Source: an uncultured cyanobacterium
GTDB taxonomy: Bacteria > Cyanobacteriota > Cyanobacteriia > PCC-6307 > Cyanobiaceae
Direction: 5' to 3'
NCBI GenBank assembly: GCA_903935205.1
Contig: CAIZQU010000070.1
Span: forward strand, 1-42,739
DNA: 42,739 nt
Below the pieces are notes generated by a model that did not search any database, had not been told where the DNA came from, and saw only the letters and a list, made by a program, of their open reading frames with translations. Positions within the stretch are counted from its first letter, which is position 1, and each line of letters begins with the position of its first letter. The position numbers were made by a program, and so were the translations under genes. Positions 2,564 to 42,739 of this stretch are shown in pieces.

Positions 2564-5500
2564 GCGGCTCTTTCCCTCGGCCAGCTCCACGCTTAGGCTC
2601 CCTTTTTGCACCCGCCCCCCGCTACCCTGACTGCAAATCGGCCCCGCCGCCGTTGACCCACCTCTTCCTTTCCCACAGCAGCGCCGACGACGGCTTCGTG
2701 CGCGAGTTGCGACAGGCATTGGCCGATCTGGGACAGGAGGTGTGGATCGATTCGCGCCAGCTCAAGGGGGGTGATCCGCTCTGGAGTGCGATCCAGATGG
2801 CGATCGAATCGGCCGCGGGGTTGGCGGTCCTGGTCAGTCCCAAGGCGTTCGAATCGGATTGGGTGGTCAGGGAGCTGAAGCACGGGCTCAAGGTGCAAGC
2901 CGAGCGGGGACGGTCTGCTTTTCCCGTGGTCCTGCTGACGCTCGATGGCACGAAACCCGGTTCTCTGGCGGGCTATTTCGCTGAAAAACCCACCTACATC
3001 CCGCTGAGCAGCGCCCCCGGCGGCACCACGGCCGCCCTCCACGACATCCTGGTGGCCATTGGCCTCCGTCTCCCCACCGACCGGCCGCCGGTGCCCCAGC
3101 CGCGGCCGGAGCCGGTGGCGGAGCTGGTGCTTGAACTCAGCGACCTCGGCTTCCAGGAGCAGGACGGCGTGCGCCGCGCCGCCGCCCGCGCCCGCCTGGT
3201 CTACGAGGCCGCCATCGCCGGCCAGCCGGAGGTGGTGAGTGAGCAGATGTGGCGGCTGATCGCCCCGCTCGGGCCGGTCGAGGCGGAGGAGCTGGGCTGG
3301 TACCTGGAGCGCTGGCCGGTGTGGCCCAACCCGCTGCTGGCCGATCGGGCCAAGCGGGTGGAGGCGAACCTGATCGCCTGGGGCCAGGCCCTCCACGGCG
3401 CCGCCCTGCCGCTGCAGCCCACGGCGAACGTGCTCCAGGCCTGGGCGGGGGTGGAGGCGGGGGCCAGCCGACGCTTCTCCGTATCCGTGGATGATTCGCC
3501 GCTGCACGGCTCCAGCGAGGCGGAGCACCAGGCCGCCCGCGAGGCCGCCACCGCCCTGCTCGCCCTGCCCTGGGAACTGCTCCACAACGGCGCTGGCTTT
3601 CTGTTTCAAGGCGCCCGGCCCACCCGCGTGCGCCGCCGGCTGCCGAACAAGCGGACCCTCGCGGTGCCGGTGGTGGCGCCACCGATCCGGGTGCTGCTGA
3701 TCACCGCCCGCCCGGAAGACGACGCCTGCGGTTACCTCGACCATCGCGCCAGCGCCCTGCCCCTGGTGGCCGCCACCGAGGAGCTGGGCGAGGTGCTGCG
3801 CCTCACCTTGCTGCACCCCGCCACCTACCCCGCCCTGGAGGCGGAGCTGGCCCGAGCCCAGCAGGCCGGAGAGCCCTATCACGTGGTGCATTTCGACGGC
3901 CACGGCGTCTACGACCGCCGCGTCGGATTGGGCGGCCTCTGCTTTGAAGATCCCAGCGATAGCCACAAGCTCACCGGGCGCCGCCACCAGACGGTGTACA
4001 CCAACCAGCTGGGGCCGCTGCTGAAGGATTACCGCATCCCGCTGGTGCTGCTGGAGGCCTGCCAGAGCGCCCAGGCAGAAGCGGGCGCCGAATCGGTGGC
4101 CAGCGAATTGCTGCAGCGGGGTGTGGCCTCGGTGGTGGCGATGAGCCACAGCGTGCTGGTGGAAACGGCGCGGCGGTTTGTGGCCGCCTTCTACGCCGAG
4201 CTGGCCAAGGGCCAGCGGGTGGGCCAGGCGATGCTCGCCGGCCAGCGGGCCTTGCACAGCGACCCCAGGCGCGGCCAGCGCTACGGCATCGGCGAGCTGA
4301 CCCTGGCCGACTGGTTTGTGCCGGTGCTGTATCAGGAAAAGGACGACCCCCAGCTGTTCACGGCCACCCCCGCGCCCCAGACCAAGGAAGACCTGCGCTC
4401 CCGCTCGCGGGCAAGGCTGGGGGCGGTGCCGCCGGAGCCTGCGAATACGGGCTTTGTGGGCCGCAGCCGCGATTTGTTGGCGCTGGAGCGGCTGCTGCGC
4501 CAGGAGCGCTGGGCGGTGGTGCGCGGCCAGGGGGGCGAGGGCAAGACGGCGTTGGCGGCGGAATTGGCCCGCTGGCTGGTGCGCTCCCAGCAGCTGCGGC
4601 GCGCGGCGTTCGTGAGTGTGGAGCTCTGCAGCCACAAGGATGCGGTGCTCGATGCCCTCGGCCGCCAGCTGGTGGGCGCCGACTACTCCGCCGCCAAATA
4701 CGACAACCCCGAGCAGGCGCTGCTGCCGATCGAGCGGGCCTTGCGGGAGCAGTCCACCCTGCTGGTGATCGACAACATGGAGAGCGTGCTGCTGCCCCCC
4801 TATCTCGACACGCCGGAACTGCTGAGCGAGGAGGCGGCGCTGGAGCTGCAGGAGATTTTGGCGTTGGCGGAACGGCTGCTACGGGCGGGCGAAACGCGGC
4901 TTGTGTTCACCAGCCGCGAGGCCCTGCCGGCACCGTTTGAGGCGAACTCTCAGCGCTGGGAGCTGCACCAGCTGGGCAAGGGCGATGCGGTGGCGTTGAT
5001 CGAGCGCTCCCTTGCCGCGGTCGAGATCAGCGGCGCCCCGGGCGCTGGGGCGGGGGCAGCAGCCCTGGAGGCCCGGCGGGAGGACATCGAAGCGCTGGTG
5101 GATGCCGTGCAGGGCCACGCCCGCACCCTGGCGCTGCTGGCCCCGGAGCTGCGCCGCCGCGGCGTGGCGGCCACCCAGGCGGCCCTGGTGGAGCTGATGC
5201 AGCAGATGCAGCAGCAGGTGGCCCCGCTGCCGGCGGACGATCCACGCCGCCGCGAGCAATCACTGTTCGCCAGCGTGGAGCTCTCCCTGCGGCGCCTTTC
5301 GGCGACCAACCGGGAGCGGGCGCGGGTGTTGGGGGTGTTCCACGGCGGCGTGAACCTCGCTTTGCTGCAGGCGATGACGGGCTGGGAGGCGGCGGAGGTG
5401 GAGGGGCTGGCGATGGAGCTGGTGGGCACCGGCCTGGCCACGCCGAATCCTTACAACCACCTCTCGCTCAATCCAGCCCTCTGCCCGTATCTCAAGGCCA

Positions 5501-7077
5501 GCCTCAGCGAGGCGGAGCTGCAGGGGCTCACGGCAGGCTGGCTGGAGGCGATGGCCTCCTATCTCGACTATCTCAATCAGCAGCAAAGCCAGAACGCGGA
5601 AGTGGCGGCGACGCTGACGCTGCTGGAGTTGCCCAATCTCTTTGCCCTGCTCGATCGCTCCCGGGCCGTCGCCGATCCCGCAACCACAATTCAGCGGACC
5701 ACCTCCCTCTACAGCCTGCTGAGAAATTCGGGCAAACCGCGGCTGCTGGAGCGGGTGGCTCGGGTGCGCGAGGCCGCCGCCGCCGCCCTGGGCGAGGGCC
5801 CCTCGCATGCACGCTTTCAGGCCAGCCGCACCCGCATCGAGCAGCAGCTGGAGGCTTGGCAGCTGCGGGAGGCGTTGGCAGGTGCGCAAGCGTTGCTGCA
5901 GCAGGCCCAGGCGGCGGGGGAAGCGGCCTATGCCGAGGCGGACTACGACCTGGCGATGGCCTTCTGGCTGCTGGGTCGGGTGTTGAAAAGAGGGGGCGGA
6001 GCGCAGCAGGCCCTGCCGCTGCTGCAGGAGGCCGGCCGGCGCTTTGAGGGCATCTCCAACAAGCGCCCGGGTGTAGGCGCGGAAAAAATGGCATCCGCCT
6101 GCCTCACGGAACAAGGCGATTGTCTGCTCATCCTGGGCCGTTACGACGCTGCGGCCGCTGCCTACGAGGAAGCGATCCGCAGAGATGAACAACGGGGGGC
6201 TCTACGCGACGTTGCCGTGGGCAAAGGCCAACTCGGCACCGTCCGCCTCCAGCAGCATCGCTATGCCGAGGCCCTAAAGGCCTACCAGCAAGCCCGCGGC
6301 ACCTTCTCGCGCCTCAATGAACCGGGCAGCGTCGCCATCGCCTGGCATCAGATCGGCAGGGTGCATCAGGAAGAGGGCCAGCCGGAGGCGGCGGAGGAGG
6401 CCTACAACCAATGCCTGGCGATCAAGGTGCGGCTCAACGATCAGGCCGGGCAGGCAGGCACCCTGGGGCAACTGGGCAATCTCTACGATGAGGTTCTGCA
6501 GCGGCCGGACGAGGCGGTGCCCTTCTTGCGGCGGGCGGCGGAGATCTATCGGGAGATCGGGGATCAAGCAAGCGAAGGAAGGACCCAGAACAATCTGGCG
6601 GATACCCTCAACAAATTCGAGCGCCTTGAGGAGGCCAGGCTGGCTATTCGCCGCGCCATCGACTGCAAAGCGCCGTTTGGCCATGCGGCTGAGCCCTGGA
6701 GAAGCTGGGCCATCCTCGCCAAAATCGAAACCGCGGCTGGTAATTCCTCCGCCGCCGCCGATGCGCGGCACCAGGCTCTTACCGCCTTTCTCGCCTACCG
6801 CCGCGATGGCGGCGAAAATCAAAGCGGATCAGGCCGCCTGGCGCTGGCCGTCCGCCAGGCCCTCGCCAACGGTGATCCAGCCGAAGTCGCCTCCGCCCTG
6901 CAGCAGCTCACCGCCGATCCGGATTTTGCAAACCAGCTCCCCTTCCTCACAGCCCTCCAGGCGATCACCGCCGGCAGCCGCGACCGCTCCCTCGCCGAGG
7001 ATCCCGGCCTCAGTTATGACCAAGCCGCCGAAGTGCTGCTGCTGATTGAGGTGCTGGAAGCAGAAGCCGGCGGCTGA
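2539..7077 (+). CDS. TIR-CHAT-NB-ARC-TPR protein (STAND ATPase)
   Basis: This 1512-aa frame holds four modules (numbering from GTG 2539). A TIR domain spans about 38-150 (THLFLSHSSADD) with Glu112 in WVVREL. A CHAT caspase-like protease domain spans about 300-600, with His455 in HFDGHG and Cys508 in EACQSA as the likely dyad. An NB-ARC/STAND ATPase starts near 640, with Walker A GQGGEGKT at 663-670 and Asp745 in LLVIDN. About six TPR repeats lie at roughly 1080-1400. Such proteins are known in cyanobacterial conflict systems: the TPRs sense or bind, ATP-driven oligomerisation activates, and the effectors cleave protein or NAD+. The target is unknown. A TTG at 2653, just before the TIR core, is an alternative start; a weak TACCCT -10-like box near 2623 would suit it. 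Tight coupling to the upstream TIR-ROCO gene suggests they act together. Confidence 0.88.
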   Translation: MPADPRSLSGSFPRPAPRLGSLFAPAPRYPDCKSAPPPLTHLFLSHSSADDGFVRELRQALADLGQEVWIDSRQLKGGDPLWSAIQMAIESAAGLAVLVSPKAFESDWVVRELKHGLKVQAERGRSAFPVVLLTLDGTKPGSLAGYFAEKPTYIPLSSAPGGTTAALHDILVAIGLRLPTDRPPVPQPRPEPVAELVLELSDLGFQEQDGVRRAAARARLVYEAAIAGQPEVVSEQMWRLIAPLGPVEAEELGWYLERWPVWPNPLLADRAKRVEANLIAWGQALHGAALPLQPTANVLQAWAGVEAGASRRFSVSVDDSPLHGSSEAEHQAAREAATALLALPWELLHNGAGFLFQGARPTRVRRRLPNKRTLAVPVVAPPIRVLLITARPEDDACGYLDHRASALPLVAATEELGEVLRLTLLHPATYPALEAELARAQQAGEPYHVVHFDGHGVYDRRVGLGGLCFEDPSDSHKLTGRRHQTVYTNQLGPLLKDYRIPLVLLEACQSAQAEAGAESVASELLQRGVASVVAMSHSVLVETARRFVAAFYAELAKGQRVGQAMLAGQRALHSDPRRGQRYGIGELTLADWFVPVLYQEKDDPQLFTATPAPQTKEDLRSRSRARLGAVPPEPANTGFVGRSRDLLALERLLRQERWAVVRGQGGEGKTALAAELARWLVRSQQLRRAAFVSVELCSHKDAVLDALGRQLVGADYSAAKYDNPEQALLPIERALREQSTLLVIDNMESVLLPPYLDTPELLSEEAALELQEILALAERLLRAGETRLVFTSREALPAPFEANSQRWELHQLGKGDAVALIERSLAAVEISGAPGAGAGAAALEARREDIEALVDAVQGHARTLALLAPELRRRGVAATQAALVELMQQMQQQVAPLPADDPRRREQSLFASVELSLRRLSATNRERARVLGVFHGGVNLALLQAMTGWEAAEVEGLAMELVGTGLATPNPYNHLSLNPALCPYLKASLSEAELQGLTAGWLEAMASYLDYLNQQQSQNAEVAATLTLLELPNLFALLDRSRAVADPATTIQRTTSLYSLLRNSGKPRLLERVARVREAAAAALGEGPSHARFQASRTRIEQQLEAWQLREALAGAQALLQQAQAAGEAAYAEADYDLAMAFWLLGRVLKRGGGAQQALPLLQEAGRRFEGISNKRPGVGAEKMASACLTEQGDCLLILGRYDAAAAAYEEAIRRDEQRGALRDVAVGKGQLGTVRLQQHRYAEALKAYQQARGTFSRLNEPGSVAIAWHQIGRVHQEEGQPEAAEEAYNQCLAIKVRLNDQAGQAGTLGQLGNLYDEVLQRPDEAVPFLRRAAEIYREIGDQASEGRTQNNLADTLNKFERLEEARLAIRRAIDCKAPFGHAAEPWRSWAILAKIETAAGNSSAAADARHQALTAFLAYRRDGGENQSGSGRLALAVRQALANGDPAEVASALQQLTADPDFANQLPFLTALQAITAGSRDRSLAEDPGLSYDQAAEVLLLIEVLEAEAGG

Positions 7078-8448: not shown

Positions 8449-8496
8449 TGTGCCCGCCTGGGGCGCCAGCGCCGGTGGCGGCAGCTACCGCCAGCA

Positions 8497-8786
8497 GCCT
8501 GTGGCGCGTTGCCGTCGTGGCTTCAGATCCATGGGGCGATCCCGCCATGGAACGGAACGGGGTCTCCCATGGATCCCATCCGCATCGCCTGGCGGCAGCG
8601 TGCCAACGGGCAGACGGATTGCACGGCAGCTGATCGTGCGCTGAAGACATCGTGCAATCAAGACATCCTGCACTGAAGACACGGAGCTGTTCTTGCTGCC
8701 CTTTGTCTCAGGATGAAGCCGCCATAGGCGCCCGATCGGCTCTGCCCTTGGTCAGGGTCTGGCCTGTCGCTCTACGCGCAAGGGGC
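8497..8786 (+). repeat. Dispersed MITE-like element, copy A
   Basis: The left end GCCTGTGGCGCGTT and the right end TACGCGCAAGGGGC form an imperfect terminal inverted repeat (10 of 14). Inside, arms at 8527-8544 and 8558-8574 form a hairpin built on ATCCATGGG/CCCATGGAT. A 19-mer at 8698-8716 (GCCCTTTGTCTCAGGATGA) is identical to one in copy B. There is no credible coding frame, so any mobility would depend on an enzyme supplied elsewhere. Confidence 0.75.
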
Positions 8787-9358
8787 TCCCGGGCGGGGCA
8801 GCAGATCATCGGCCCCTGAGGCAGCTCCCTCCCCACCCCCTCGCCGCCTGGCCCCATCCCCAGATCAGCAGCCCCGCGCACCTCGCCCCCCACCAGCGGC
8901 ACCACCCCCCGATGGCCCTGAGGGCCGCAGCCGCCCGAGGCCGGTTCAACGCCCAAGCCAGCGGTGTGCCGATCAGCCACACCAGCTCGGCATCGACCCG
9001 CCTGATCGCCCGATCCCGCGGAACAGGGACCATCCCGGCAGCGGCGGCGATCGCGAGGCTCAGGCGATCAGGCGATCAGAACAAAATTTGATCGGCCCAT
9101 TGCTCCCATCTTTGAGCGCCCATCCCGCCGAGCTGTTGTGGTCCCCATGGACCCCTCTTGCGGTCCTCTTGCGGTCCTCTTGCGGTCCTCTTGCACCCCT
9201 GTGGCGGCCCTCTTTTTTCTCAGGCTGATGCTTGTGCTTATTCCTCTCTTTTTTTCCTGTTGATGTCCTGTTGTTTTCCTGTTGTAACAAAAAAGGCGGG
9301 GCCAGATCGCTATTCCTAGCTTCCTGGTGCTTGCGTCCATTGCCGCAGCCGCGATCCC
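8787..9358. other. Gene-free stretch upstream of the M28 peptidase
   Basis: No recognisable gene is present. The first 280 bp are very GC-rich. Short minus-strand frames here (for example 8806-9033, with a Trp/Leu-rich peptide) match nothing I recognise. The second half holds an 11-bp tandem repeat (9154-9194), T-rich runs and three CCTGTTG motifs at about 9256-9286. The AT-richer 9210-9300 segment is the likeliest place for the peptidase promoter. Confidence 0.5.
9154..9194. repeat. 11-bp tandem repeat, 3.7 units
   Basis: CCTCTTGCGGT is repeated exactly at 9154-9164, 9165-9175 and 9176-9186, followed by a partial CCTCTTGC at 9187-9194. Confidence 0.9.
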
Positions 9359-10303
9359 ATGCCGGCGGATCCCGCAGCCGCAATCCGCCCCCCTCCCCAT
9401 CGCTTGATGTTCCGTTCCCGATCGACGACCCAACCCGCCCCTTCCTCCACAGGCGCCGGGCTGGCGACTGCGCCGCAGGACCTGCAGGCGAGGCTGCTGC
9501 ACCATCTCAATCAGCTGGTCCATCCGCGACACGCCAGCTGGGATGCCATCGGGCTGCTGGGGGTGCGCACGGCGATCCGGGAGGTGCTCGGCCGCTATGG
9601 GGCGGTGGAAGACCAGGCCTTTGAGGACCGGGGCGTGGCGGGGCACAACCTGATCCTGCGCCTCCCGGGCCTCCATCCGGAGCGGGAGCCACTGCTGCTC
9701 GGGGCCCACTACGACGCGGCGATCCATTGCCCCGGCGCCGACGACAACGCCACCGGCGTGGCCACCCTCCTGGAGCTCGGCCGCGCCCTGGCCGAACGGC
9801 CATCGCCGCGACCGGTATGGCTCGTGGCCTTCGATCAGGAGGAAAGCGGCCTGCACGGCAGCCGGGCCCTGGCCCGCAGGCTCCAGGCGGAAGGCCAGCG
9901 GCTGCATCTGATGCTCAGCCTGGAGATGCTGGGCTACACCAGCACCCAGCAGCGTTATCCCCTGGCGGCGATGCGCCATCTCTATGGCGAGCGGGGCGAT
10001 TTCATCGCCGTGGTCGGCAACGCCAGGGCCGCCCTGCCGATGCTGACCCTCTGGCGCAGCCTCGCTCGCTCCGTCCCCACCAAACTGCTGCCGGTGCTCG
10101 CTGGTGGCCAGCAGCTGCCCGTGACCCGGCGCAGCGACCACAGCCCGTTCTGGGATGCCGGCTACAACGCCGTGATGGTCACCGACACCTCCTTCCTGCG
10201 CAACCCCAACTACCACCAGCCCAGCGACACGATCGCCAGCCTCGATCTGCCCTTCCATGCCGCCGTGACCCGCGGCCTGGAGGCCGCCATCCATGCCCTC
10301 TGA
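9359..10303 (+). CDS. M28 family zinc peptidase
   Basis: The 314-aa protein has the M28 metal-ligand and catalytic pattern: His117 and Asp119 in GAHYDA, the GADDNATG motif at 127-133, the Glu161-Glu162 pair in FDQEESG, Glu189 in LSLEML and His261 in RSDHSPF. M28 enzymes are di-zinc aminopeptidases; the related glutaminyl cyclases share the fold. The double Glu favours a peptidase. There is no convincing signal peptide, so it may be cytoplasmic. An in-frame ATG at 9407 is an alternative start that would remove a Pro-rich leader. The gene stands alone between two copies of the dispersed repeat in the same orientation. Confidence 0.85.
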   Translation: MPADPAAAIRPPPHRLMFRSRSTTQPAPSSTGAGLATAPQDLQARLLHHLNQLVHPRHASWDAIGLLGVRTAIREVLGRYGAVEDQAFEDRGVAGHNLILRLPGLHPEREPLLLGAHYDAAIHCPGADDNATGVATLLELGRALAERPSPRPVWLVAFDQEESGLHGSRALARRLQAEGQRLHLMLSLEMLGYTSTQQRYPLAAMRHLYGERGDFIAVVGNARAALPMLTLWRSLARSVPTKLLPVLAGGQQLPVTRRSDHSPFWDAGYNAVMVTDTSFLRNPNYHQPSDTIASLDLPFHAAVTRGLEAAIHAL

Positions 10304-10366
10304 GGGCCCTGTCGGCCTCGGAGACCGCGGCCCCCGGGGCCGATGCCCTGGCTCCTGGATCTAAGA

Positions 10367-10624
10367 GCCTGTTGCGCGTAGCCGTATTGGCCCCAAATCC
10401 ATGGGCTGATCCCGCCCATGAGCGAATGAGGGCCCCACATGGATCTCGTTCGCATAGAGCCTGCGGCGCTGTTTCAAAGGGCAGAGCCATTGCGCCGTAA
10501 CAGATCTCGCGCTGAGGGTGCTGAGGTGTTCTCGACGCCCTTTGTCTCAGGATGAGGCTGCGACAGCTGCCTGATGGGGCTGTCATTGTTCAGGGCCTGG
10601 CCTGTCGACTTACACGCAACAGGC
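10367..10624 (+). repeat. Dispersed MITE-like element, copy B
   Basis: The element is bounded by 14-bp terminal inverted repeats, GCCTGTTGCGCGTA (10367-10380) and TACACGCAACAGGC (10611-10624), matching at 13 of 14. It contains the hairpin arms ATCCATGGGCTGATCCC (10397-10413) and GGGCCCCACATGGAT (10430-10444), and the 19-mer shared with copy A at 10537-10555. Its right end lies two bases from the murF stop codon. CTAAG and CTAGG flank the two ends, which could be a decayed target duplication, but they are not exact. Confidence 0.8.
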
Positions 10625-10626
10625 GC

Positions 10627-12054
10627 CTAGGGCACCGCCAGGATCCGCTCCAGGTCAACCAGCAGACGCTCCAGGGCCACCCCCCGGCTGGCCTTGAGCA
10701 ACAGGGCGTCACCAGGCCGCAGCCAGGGCACCAGCACGGCCGTCGCCGCCTCTGGATCCGCCACCCGCTCCAGACGAGCCAGGCCCGCCGCCGCCGCCAC
10801 CATCGCCTCCCCCTCGGCGCCGGCGTCAACGATCAGCAGGCCATCGAGACCGAGTGTGGCGGCGCGACGGGCCACCCTGGCGTGAAGGTCCAGGCTCTGA
10901 TCGCCGAGTTCCAGCATCGTGCCCAGCACCGCCCAGCGCCTGCCACCCGGTGGCAGGTTCTGGCGGGCCAACAGCTCCAGGGCCGCGAGCACCGCCTCGG
11001 GGGACGCGTTATAGGTTTCGTCCAGCACCTGCACACCGCCAAGCTCCAGGCGGCGGCTGCGGCCCCCCGGCACCTCCACCCTCAGGCAATCCAGGTCCTC
11101 GTCGGCCACACCCAACTCCTTGGCCACCGCCAGGGCCAACAGCAGGTTGCGGGCGTTGTGACGGCCCGGCAGGGGCAGGGGCAGGGGGGGGCGATCGGGC
11201 AGCTCCAACCAGTCGCCGCCCTCCGCACCGGCGTCGCCCTGGTGGAGGCGAGCCGTCAGCTGCGGCGCCGGCGTATCCGGCGCCAGATCATCGTCGGCCA
11301 GGGCCACCCGGCAGACCCGGCCACCCCAGACCGGCGCCAGCGCCGCCTCCAGCAGCGGATCCCCGGCGGGAATCACCACCAGCCCATCGGGCCGCAGCGC
11401 CGCCGTGATCTCACACTTGGCCGTGGCGATCGCCTCGCGGCTGCCCAGCCGACCGATATGGGCTGTGCCGATGTTGGTGATCACCGCCACATCGGGCTCG
11501 GCGCAACGGCTCAGCCGGTCGATCTCACCCAGGCCGCGCATGCCCATCTCCACCACCAGGGCGGCGCTGCCGGCATCGGCCCGAAGCAATGTCAATGGTG
11601 CACCGATGTCGTTGTTGTCGTTGCCGCTGCTGGCCACCACCGGACCGAGGGGCGCCAGCGCGGCGCGGATCAGCTCACGGGTGGTCGTCTTGCCCGCCGA
11701 ACCGGTCACCGCCACCACCGGCAGCGCCAGCCTGCGGCGCCAGAGCCGACCCAGCTCCTGATAGGCCGCCAATGTGTCATCCACCAGCCAGATCGGACGA
11801 CCCAGGGCCGCCAGGGCCGCCCGCCGCTCCTCGCTGACCCGGTCCCGGGCGGCGATGGCCGCCGCCGCTCCAGCGGCGAGGGCGGCGTCCAGGAAGCGAT
11901 GGCCATCGAAACGCTCCCCCACCAGTGGCACGAACAGGGCACCCTCCAGATCGGCGCGACTGTCGGTGCTGACGCGCTGCAGCATCGCCGGCACCGCCCC
12001 ATCCCCGAGCGGAGGCCCCCAAAGTGCGCTGAGCTGATCGCAGGGCAGGGTCAT
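10627..12054 (-). CDS. murF: UDP-MurNAc-tripeptide--D-Ala-D-Ala ligase MurF
   Basis: MurF adds D-alanyl-D-alanine to the UDP-MurNAc-tripeptide, the last cytoplasmic step of the peptidoglycan precursor. The 475-aa length fits the family. Visible signatures are the ATP-binding TGSAGKTTT loop at 117-125, GNDNNDIGAPLTLL, the central EMGMRG and NIGTAHIGRLGS segments, and the C-terminal DETYNASPEAVLAAL. It is last in the minus-strand run; its ATG overlaps the stop of the upstream membrane-protein gene by 4 nt, suggesting translational coupling. A dispersed repeat ends two bases beyond its stop codon. Confidence 0.95.
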   Translation of the reverse strand: MTLPCDQLSALWGPPLGDGAVPAMLQRVSTDSRADLEGALFVPLVGERFDGHRFLDAALAAGAAAAIAARDRVSEERRAALAALGRPIWLVDDTLAAYQELGRLWRRRLALPVVAVTGSAGKTTTRELIRAALAPLGPVVASSGNDNNDIGAPLTLLRADAGSAALVVEMGMRGLGEIDRLSRCAEPDVAVITNIGTAHIGRLGSREAIATAKCEITAALRPDGLVVIPAGDPLLEAALAPVWGGRVCRVALADDDLAPDTPAPQLTARLHQGDAGAEGGDWLELPDRPPLPLPLPGRHNARNLLLALAVAKELGVADEDLDCLRVEVPGGRSRRLELGGVQVLDETYNASPEAVLAALELLARQNLPPGGRRWAVLGTMLELGDQSLDLHARVARRAATLGLDGLLIVDAGAEGEAMVAAAAGLARLERVADPEAATAVLVPWLRPGDALLLKASRGVALERLLVDLERILAVP

Positions 12055-13103
12055 CGCGGCGCGTCGCTGCTGTCGAGCAGGATCATGCCGGAACCGACCC
12101 GCGCTGGCCGCCCCAGGGGGCGATCGCGGCCATCGACCAGCTCCAGCCGCTCATAGCCCAGGTCCTGACTTCTGGCCAGCCAGCCATCCGCCAACCGCTG
12201 GCGCTCCACCAGCGGCAGGGCCGCAAACGGGGCAGCGAGGCGCAGGCGCAGCAATCCCTCCGCCGCTGAGGTCTCCACGGCCATGGCCCAGGCTGGCGGC
12301 ATCTCCCCCAGCAGGGCCCGGAGCAGCAGGGCCGCCTGGGCATCGCCATCGACGGGGCCTGCGCTGGCAGCGGCGGGGGTGGGGGCGGCGGCTGGATCAG
12401 CGGACCCGGAGCCAGGGGCCGGGGCTCGCGGGCTGGTCGGCGGGGGAGCAGGCGAATCGCTCGCCGTTTTGGTCGTCTTTTTGCTCGTCTTGTTGGTCGT
12501 CTTGTTGCTCGGCCTGCTCGGCAGATCGGCTGCCAGATCGGCCGGTAGCTCGGCAGATGAATCGGCAGGCAAGTCGCCAGATGGATCGGCAGGCAAATCG
12601 CCAGATGAATCGGCGGATGGATCGGCAAGCGAATCGCCTGGCGAATCGGCCGGCGGCTGGCTGGGCCCCGCCGGTTCGCCTTCGGCTGCTGGATCGAGCG
12701 CGGGGGCGGAGACGGGCGGCGGGCTTGGGGCAGGCGGGGGCGCTGGGGGCGATTCAGCCCGGGGCCGCGCTTCGGGGGCAGGGGCCGCGGCGGGGGCAGC
12801 GGGCGACAGGACCGGAGTGGCGACGGGGGTGGTGGCACCCCGCCTGCGGGCGAGCATCACCCCCGCCGGCAGCGACAGCACAGCCACCAGCAACGCCAGC
12901 AGCAGCGGCCAGAACAGGGACGCCTGCCCCCGGGGCCACCACCGCGGCAACAGCACATCACCCTGGCCGTTGCGCCGCCAGAGCTCCCTCAGCCGCAGCC
13001 CCAGCGAAGCCAACACGGCGATCGCTGCGGCGCCGAGCCGCCGCCAGGGATCCTCATAGGGTGCGGGCAGGCCGGAGCCAGGCTCCGGCCGCGATCGCCT
13101 CAT
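12051..13103 (-). CDS. Membrane-anchored low-complexity hypothetical protein
   Basis: I do not recognise a family. The 350-aa protein has a basic N-terminus and one transmembrane helix at about 62-85 ([18 protein letters not shown]). A long Pro/Ala/Ser/Asp-rich linker follows, with repeated SGDLPADP units and a Lys/Thr-rich stretch. The compact C-terminal domain of about 90 residues includes [24 protein letters not shown]. This looks like a one-pass anchor, a flexible spacer and a small globular domain, most likely facing the periplasm. It overlaps glgA and murF by 4 nt on either side, so it is probably co-transcribed and translationally coupled with both. A role in the envelope is only an inference from murF and the domain layout. 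Confidence 0.7.
12561..12608. repeat. 24-bp tandem repeat within coding sequence
   Basis: Units 12561-12584 and 12585-12608 match at 22 of 24 positions and begin ATCGGCAGGCAA. They encode, on the minus strand, eight-residue SGDLPAD-type units. More degenerate copies continue on both sides in the spacer of the membrane protein. Confidence 0.8.
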
Positions 13104-42498: not shown

Positions 42499-42515
42499 GG
42501 CCGCAGCTCCTGCAA

Positions 42516-42606
42516 GCCTGTCGCCTGTTGCCGTATTGGCCGCCAATCCATGGGGAGATCACACGACGGAGCAAAGCCGGGTCTCCCATGGATCCCATCG
42601 CTGGCG
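42516..42606 (+). repeat. Dispersed MITE-like element, copy C (left part)
   Basis: The first 24 bases match the start of copy B at 20 positions, including an exact GCCGTATTGG at 42530-42539. The hairpin arms ATCCATGGGGAGATC (42546-42560) and GGGTCTCCCATGGAT (42579-42593) are well preserved. Similarity to copies A and B fades after about 42606, and no right end was found before the window stops. Confidence 0.7.
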
Positions 42607-42636
42607 TCCCCGCGAGTGGTGTAATTCCCCCGGCAC

Positions 42637-42663
42637 CCCCACCCCTGCGTAGCCGGGGTGGGG
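42637..42663. other. Perfect 9-bp GC hairpin
   Basis: CCCCACCCC (42637-42645) and GGGGTGGGG (42655-42663) pair perfectly around a 9-nt loop. No T run follows on either strand, so terminator function is doubtful. Confidence 0.5.
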
Positions 42664-42739
42664 CGCGCACCTCAGGCGATCGGCTCCACGGCTGACGTTG
42701 CAAGGGGTGGGCAGGCCCGTTTCCCTGGTTCGAGTACCA

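Follow-up and report, generated by a model that had tools for sequence, protein, structure and literature searches.

MITEs related to insertion sequences of the IS1182 family have already been published for Methanosarcina acetivorans, as described in parts of PMC3852290, and a portion of PMC5678879 gives palindromes as the targets of some IS1182 members. CTAG as a target word is also on record: in the relevant passages of PMC3189936, MITEPsy1 of Pseudomonas syringae uses CTAG or YTAA, and the title of a 1993 paper cited in PMC6471742 states that IS870 requires a CTAG target and exploits its stop codon. For cyanobacteria, Nezha and other MITEs are named in the review PMC10969869, the main text of which mentions neither IS1182 nor CTAG nor a stop codon, and none of the matches listed for literature titles concerned MITEs of Cyanobium-like hosts. 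Is there a comparable element in such a genome, and what would move it? The window considered here, that is, the whole stretch of 42,739 nucleotides analysed, is one contig (C70) of a 3.82-Mb assembly in 169 contigs from an uncultured cyanobacterium of the Cyanobiaceae, below called the host genome. Two repeats in this window, A and B, very probably represent old copies of a MITE of IS1182 type, non-autonomous and moved in trans at CTAG-like targets. The family with its young copies is real, and an IS1182-type transposase is very probably its mover.

The first-pass annotation, made from the sequence alone, had reported A and B as two full copies of a dispersed element with terminal inverted repeats and an internal hairpin. 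Both were confirmed, and the window holds a third, incomplete one. The features are as follows, where the bounds of A and B come from an alignment of 32 copies.

8495..8788, plus strand: copy A, old and diverged, 294 bp with about 30 bp extra
8495..8511, plus strand: left terminal inverted repeat of copy A, 3 mismatches to GAGCCTGTTGCGCGTAG
8525..8576, plus strand: ATCCATGGG hairpin region of copy A
8698..8716, plus strand: 19-mer core GCCCTTTGTCTCAGGATGA of copy A
8772..8788, minus strand: right terminal inverted repeat of copy A, 2 mismatches to GAGCCTGTTGCGCGTAG
10361-10364: left flank of copy B, reading CTAA
10365..10626, plus strand: copy B, 262 bp
10365..10381, plus strand: left terminal inverted repeat of copy B, exact GAGCCTGTTGCGCGTAG
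10395..10446, plus strand: ATCCATGGG hairpin region of copy B
10537..10555, plus strand: 19-mer core GCCCTTTGTCTCAGGATGA of copy B
10610..10626, minus strand: right terminal inverted repeat of copy B, 3 mismatches to GAGCCTGTTGCGCGTAG
10627..10630, no strand: right flank CTAG of copy B, whose complement holds the amber stop of a Mur ligase gene (10627-12054, minus)
42514..42739, plus strand: third copy, 226 bp, interrupted by the contig end

The likeness of A and B is well above chance, with 193 of 260 aligned bases identical, and both fall in the window repeat families D2, D3 and D17. Copy A is flanked by CCAG on the left and CCGG on the right. The exact 19-mer said to occur in both copies was found at 8698 and 10537. 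The length of 258-290 bp given earlier has to be corrected to the 262 bp of B and 294 bp of A. An inverted repeat of about 14 bp, matching at 13 of 14 positions in B, had been described as well; this is right for B after a shift of two bases and too generous for A, since the arms in the family are 17 bp long, and the two of B agree at 14 of 17 positions but those of A at no more than 12. Two tandem repeats of other kinds were also seen in the window. An 11-bp unit (cctcttgcggt) is repeated three to four times in tandem at 9151-9200, upstream of an M28 peptidase gene, and 12-bp tandem units at 12520-12639 lie within a 350-aa frame (12051-13103, minus) without a Pfam match.

How large is the family? 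When A and B were compared with the host genome by BLAST and the rows merged, at least 50 places on 34 contigs were obtained, a lower bound as only 40 of the 93 first-look candidates in one search and 40 of the 82 in the other went on to scoring (47 rows for query A and 44 for query B at E up to 0.01) and the window copy at 42514 lies outside the count. The 19-mer GCCCTTTGTCTCAGGATGA occurs 15 times in the host genome and its reversed control 0 times. Allowing up to 3 mismatches, GAGCCTGTTGCGCGTAG was found 55 times forward and 49 times reverse (104), where its reversed control gave 2 and 2. Forty-four candidate copies were cut out, and the 32 with clear coordinates were used for the ends; the table of ends was made without the tandem pair on C138 and the copies at contig edges, and the right ends of C109 and C165 in it are slightly clipped. 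The 17-bp inverted repeat GAGCCTGTTGCGCGTAG stands at both ends of the aligned copies, diverged in the old ones, with copy C57a lacking a clear left end. The lengths of the 32 aligned copies range from 242 to 319 bp, and 16 of them are exactly 263 bp. Subfamilies can be told apart: a young one resembling copy C86, to which 10 further places are 93-97% identical, an ATCCATGGG one, and old copies including A and B. The length variants come partly from internal tandem units. Copies C78e, C78b, C78f, C88 and C109 carry units of about 14 bp (TCCTGATGCCCTGT-like) in varying number at alignment columns 160-270, and C109 has a GAGATGAAGGT-like unit inside the element. Copy C150c sits within a 12-bp tandem repeat. 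At C138:3396-3892 (L113 397-893) two copies stand in tandem, the first without its last bases and abutting the left end of the next. The host genome also has a different small element, with like ends (GAGCCTGTTGCGCATAGATTTTCCGTGAGGG..) and another interior, of which two copies were seen, at L075 1990-2235 (C24) and L084 1-227 (C150), one of them cut by a contig end.

The lack of a coding frame, claimed at the outset, holds for the family: whichever frame is taken, it stays open across 95% of the element in at most 6 of the 32 copies. As grounds against a MITE, the first-pass annotation had named an absence of further copies in the genome or copies lacking consistent ends; further copies with consistent ends were found in the host genome. 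The MITE form is thus borne out by many dispersed copies that are short, have consistent ends and no common frame, and end like IS1182-type insertion sequences. No copy turned up in 30 further genomes of the genus (up to 24 candidates scored per genome, E up to 0.001) and none in 299 further genomes of the taxonomic family (up to 2 candidates scored per genome, E up to 1e-6), and there was no match at E 1e-5 indicating carriage on a phage or plasmid. The copies also call for some caution in assembly, as contigs C70 (the window), C102 and C129 at the least start or finish inside one.

Then what moves these copies? The first-pass annotation had proposed to look for a transposase with matching ends, and one of IS1182 type was found in relatives, the left end matching best, while the host genome holds it in pieces. 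The pattern AGGAGCCTGTTGCGCRTAG was found in 95 stretches of named genomes. The transposase of the host genome was matched in 14 of the 95 (13 cyanobacterial and 1 acidobacterial), and in many of the others the contig stops within a few hundred bases of the pattern. Complete insertion sequences bounded by CTAG on either side were seen in L172, a cyanobacterial genome bin from Lake Pavin (1837 bp), and in L153, Synechococcus sp. CS-1328 (1793 bp), the latter with 4 mismatches among the 13 positions of its right end. Their transposases match NF033551 IS1182 at 332 bits (L172) and 347 bits (L153), above the cut-off of 270. In the host genome the IS1182 transposase was observed only as pieces. The part on contig C156 scores 295.5 bits with NF033551, covers 470 of 532 residues at 82.6% identity to that of L153, its frame stopping before the remaining 62, and adjoins CTAG-GAGCCTGTCGCGCATAG, which is 2 mismatches from the MITE end; contig C79 has a C-terminal part, 80.5% identical to that of L153 over 133 residues. 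The identity of this transposase points to a picocyanobacterial host. The left end GAGCCTGTTGCGC(R)TAG together with CTAG is common to the MITE and the picocyanobacterial IS1182 elements. Both ends of the MITE are like the left end of the insertion sequences, the right ends of which differ (GAGTTTG.., GAGCGTG..).

An origin of the MITE by internal deletion of an IS1182 element was considered and rejected. When C86, A and B were compared with the 95 stretches by BLAST, the interior was unmatched among the best rows, which held the 17-21 bp ends with small extensions and a weak 70-bp match to L170 (E 0.003). Judged by these comparisons, the MITE does not take its interior from the insertion sequence and the two appear to have the ends alone in common.

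The mover might instead be another transposase, of IS5 type or some other, with the IS1182-like end arising by chance or borrowing. IS5-type transposases are also present in the host genome, and insertion sequences with a CTAG target are known elsewhere (IS870, by the title cited in PMC6471742). But among the transposase loci scanned, a set that left out the IS5-type locus C140, the 17-bp end with fewer than 4 mismatches was found at only C156, the IS1182 locus, and C131, where an end with two mismatches lies about 1.7 kb from a transposase fragment and continues into the right-end sequence of the MITE. We therefore regard a mover of another type as very unlikely. According to the IS1182 reading, a DDE transposase of this family would bind the GAGCCTGTTGCGC(R)TAG ends in trans and move the element, which would insert at a 4-bp CTAG-like target and duplicate it.

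The flanks of the copies give a mixed picture of this last step. Read inwards, the left-end flanks in the host genome are CTAG in 15 of 48 and CCAG in 10 of 48, and the right-end flanks CTAG in 8 of 43 and CCAG in 13 of 43, the rest being various. Target duplications were to be looked for according to the first-pass annotation. Identical 4-bp flanks occur at 5 of the 32 host copies against 3.8 expected when flanks are swapped among copies, so that duplication is not claimed there; the flanks of these copies are CTAG or decayed forms of the word. For small same-ended elements in other genomes, on the other hand, the 4-bp flanks are identical in 15 of 19 (22 rows in which 3 elements appear twice, found by a pattern that fixed AG before the left end and left the right flank free), including the non-palindromic pairs CCAG/CCAG (L132) and CAAG/CAAG (L191).

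Could the element insert without any duplication, its ends starting with AGGAGCC..? This fits a flank pair such as CTAG/CTGG, and it fails for CTCG/CTCG (C86) and CTCAG/CTCAG (C27) as well as for the CCAG and CAAG pairs in other genomes. A decay of CTAG to CCAG at the ends by Vsr-type repair was considered too and given up, as no Vsr match was found in the host genome. CCAG read inwards flanks 23 of 91 element ends.

Several small elements with similar surroundings were observed in other genomes. Same-ended elements of about 160-176 bp with CTAG-like flanks occur in Gemmatimonadetes, Myxococcales, Acidobacteria and one genome bin (L127, L149, L166 and other contigs of Gemmatimonadetes ARS67; L120, L123, L175, L185); in many of the contigs fetched from ARS67 the end sits near the contig end. 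Another small picocyanobacterial element, 192-290 bp long with ends like GAGCCTGTTGCGCATAGAYC and CTAG on both sides, was seen in Lake Pavin bins and Cyanobium sp. Cruz CV13-4-11 (L182, L140, L156, L139, L197, and L172 at 5455-5714).

A target word of this kind has a consequence for the neighbouring genes. In 179,373 bases of the host genome, a non-random sample fetched mostly around elements, CTAG shows an 8-fold depletion or thereabouts, with 67 occurrences against 545 expected from base composition, and 24 of the 67 lie at element ends. Since CTAG is scarce in so GC-rich a genome and frequently includes an amber stop, some copies would come to lie exactly on gene ends. Since its duplication would keep the stop, the protein would be unchanged and the element would become the 3' flank of the gene.

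Are copies found at gene ends? The question was put to 27 full copies (the aligned set without C78e, C109, C165, C78c and C57a), with genes judged by open frames rather than annotation. In 8 of the 27 the flanking word is the exact stop (offset 0) of an open frame of at least 150 codons, and in 9 if the longer flank of C26a is used. Copy B is one of them. The gene it abuts has Pfam Mur_ligase domains, and we take it to be murF. The other products, assigned by eye, are presumably RF1 (prfA), CdsA, RecR, a GTPase, a glucosamine-6-phosphate isomerase-like protein (nagB-like), a ComM-like protein and a small unnamed protein. For 7 of the genes, 48 homologous ends were collected from relatives in the genus without a detected copy (28 loci and 20 stretches, a subset of the matches, length differences being counted without gaps); the stop falls at the same codon in 35 of 48 and within 3 codons in 45 of 48. 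The position is exact in 12 of 12 for recR, 6 of 6 for prfA, 15 of 16 for cdsA and 1 of 1 for the GTPase, and in 1 of 4 for murF, 0 of 4 for the ComM-like gene and 0 of 5 for the nagB-like gene. This agreement indicates that the insertion sites are native gene ends, clearest for recR, prfA and cdsA. The relatives mostly stop with TGA, TAG being used in 5 of 48, and none of the far-side flanks of the stop-abutting copies reads as TGA.

Such exact closures of long frames, at ends that are native in relatives chiefly for recR, prfA and cdsA, could also mean that the copies target stop codons specifically and not the word CTAG. Yet CTAG words away from element ends behave alike: 10 of 43 close frames of at least 150 codons (13 of 43 for at least 100 codons), which does not differ from 8 of 27 (p 0.58) or 9 of 27 (p 0.41). 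Because other CTAG words fall on stops at a like rate, the link with stop codons follows from the target word, and a specific choice of stop codons has little probability.

There is a further question, whether the element spread or was kept as a structured RNA or a regulatory hairpin, for example a 3' UTR terminator or a small RNA. The first-pass annotation leaned this way, holding that base changes in the arms of the hairpin leave their pairing conserved and that this suggests selection on structure or on an RNA. Folds do beat shuffles, with z of -4.4 for C86, a young copy, and of -2.8 and -3.5 for B and A; terminal inverted repeats by themselves fold strongly, however, and folds better than shuffles are expected from terminal repeats of this length. 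In the structure set of 31 copies (without C57a), 86-89% of cells are paired in the hairpin named by the annotation. Double changes are few in it, at 3 pairs and 4 of 371 cells, and sliding the partner by one column yields about as many (3 pairs, 3 cells), so the arms are not seen to be kept as pairs despite changes. A second register of the hairpin exceeds letter shuffles, none of 500 reaching its covariation score or its number of paired cells and 0 to 7 of 500 reaching its values on five measures; the relatedness of the copies alone can produce such an excess without structure. Its double changes (4 pairs, 5 of 462 cells) are also outnumbered in the slid control (7 pairs, 9 cells). The covariation term of RNAalifold is only -0.22 kcal/mol, with a double change in 4 of 41 pairs, and no Rfam family is above threshold in the window. 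Terminator-like patterns number 2 between 8400 and 10700, one of them inside B, against 0.9 in shuffles. Left ends are found on stops of long frames in 10 of 48 cases and right ends in 3 of 43 (Fisher p 0.075), a point for the RNA reading. Taken with the slid controls, the small covariation term and the lack of an Rfam family in the window, these data do not uphold the claimed selection on structure or RNA, and a structured-RNA family is highly improbable as the explanation. That the element was tamed as a genetic end-piece, a 3' flank ending or stabilising the messages of prfA, recR, cdsA and murF, is suggested by the copies on native stops with the left end mostly towards the gene (the same 10 of 48 against 3 of 43), and we give it scarcely any credence.

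The preferred reading thus remains that of a MITE moved in trans by an IS1182-type transposase. It gives the Cyanobium-like picocyanobacteria, on whose MITEs none of the titles listed bore, a well-populated family with young copies, tied to a named transposase family. It also puts figures on the way in which a target word holding a stop lets an element occupy the last codon of a core gene with the protein unchanged. How does this family compare with those described before? The MITEs of M. acetivorans, as far as the portions of PMC3852290 describe them, are likewise short (160 and 169 bp) and have an IS1182 partner, ISMac2; they are archaeal, shorter and fewer, with 14 and 7 copies, inverted repeats of 26 and 25 bp and direct repeats of 4 and 0 bp, and the likeness is drawn apart from the sequences of the ends. 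MITEPsy1 shares the target word and differs in its length of 100 bp, its inverted repeats and its probable origin from ISPsy2 (passages of PMC3189936). Nezha and the others named for cyanobacteria are likewise MITEs in cyanobacteria, and are likened here by name, not by sequence. IS870 is an IS5-type insertion sequence of Agrobacterium. It is autonomous, and the codon provided by the target closes its own large ORF, unlike the stops of neighbouring genes at the MITE. The picocyanobacterial IS1182 elements (L172 and L153, by NF033551) have the left end GAGCCTGTTGCGC(R)TAG and the CTAG flanks as in the MITE, whereas they are 1.8 kb long, bear a transposase, and have an unrelated interior and a different right end. 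The MITE is therefore new as a family and ordinary as a kind.
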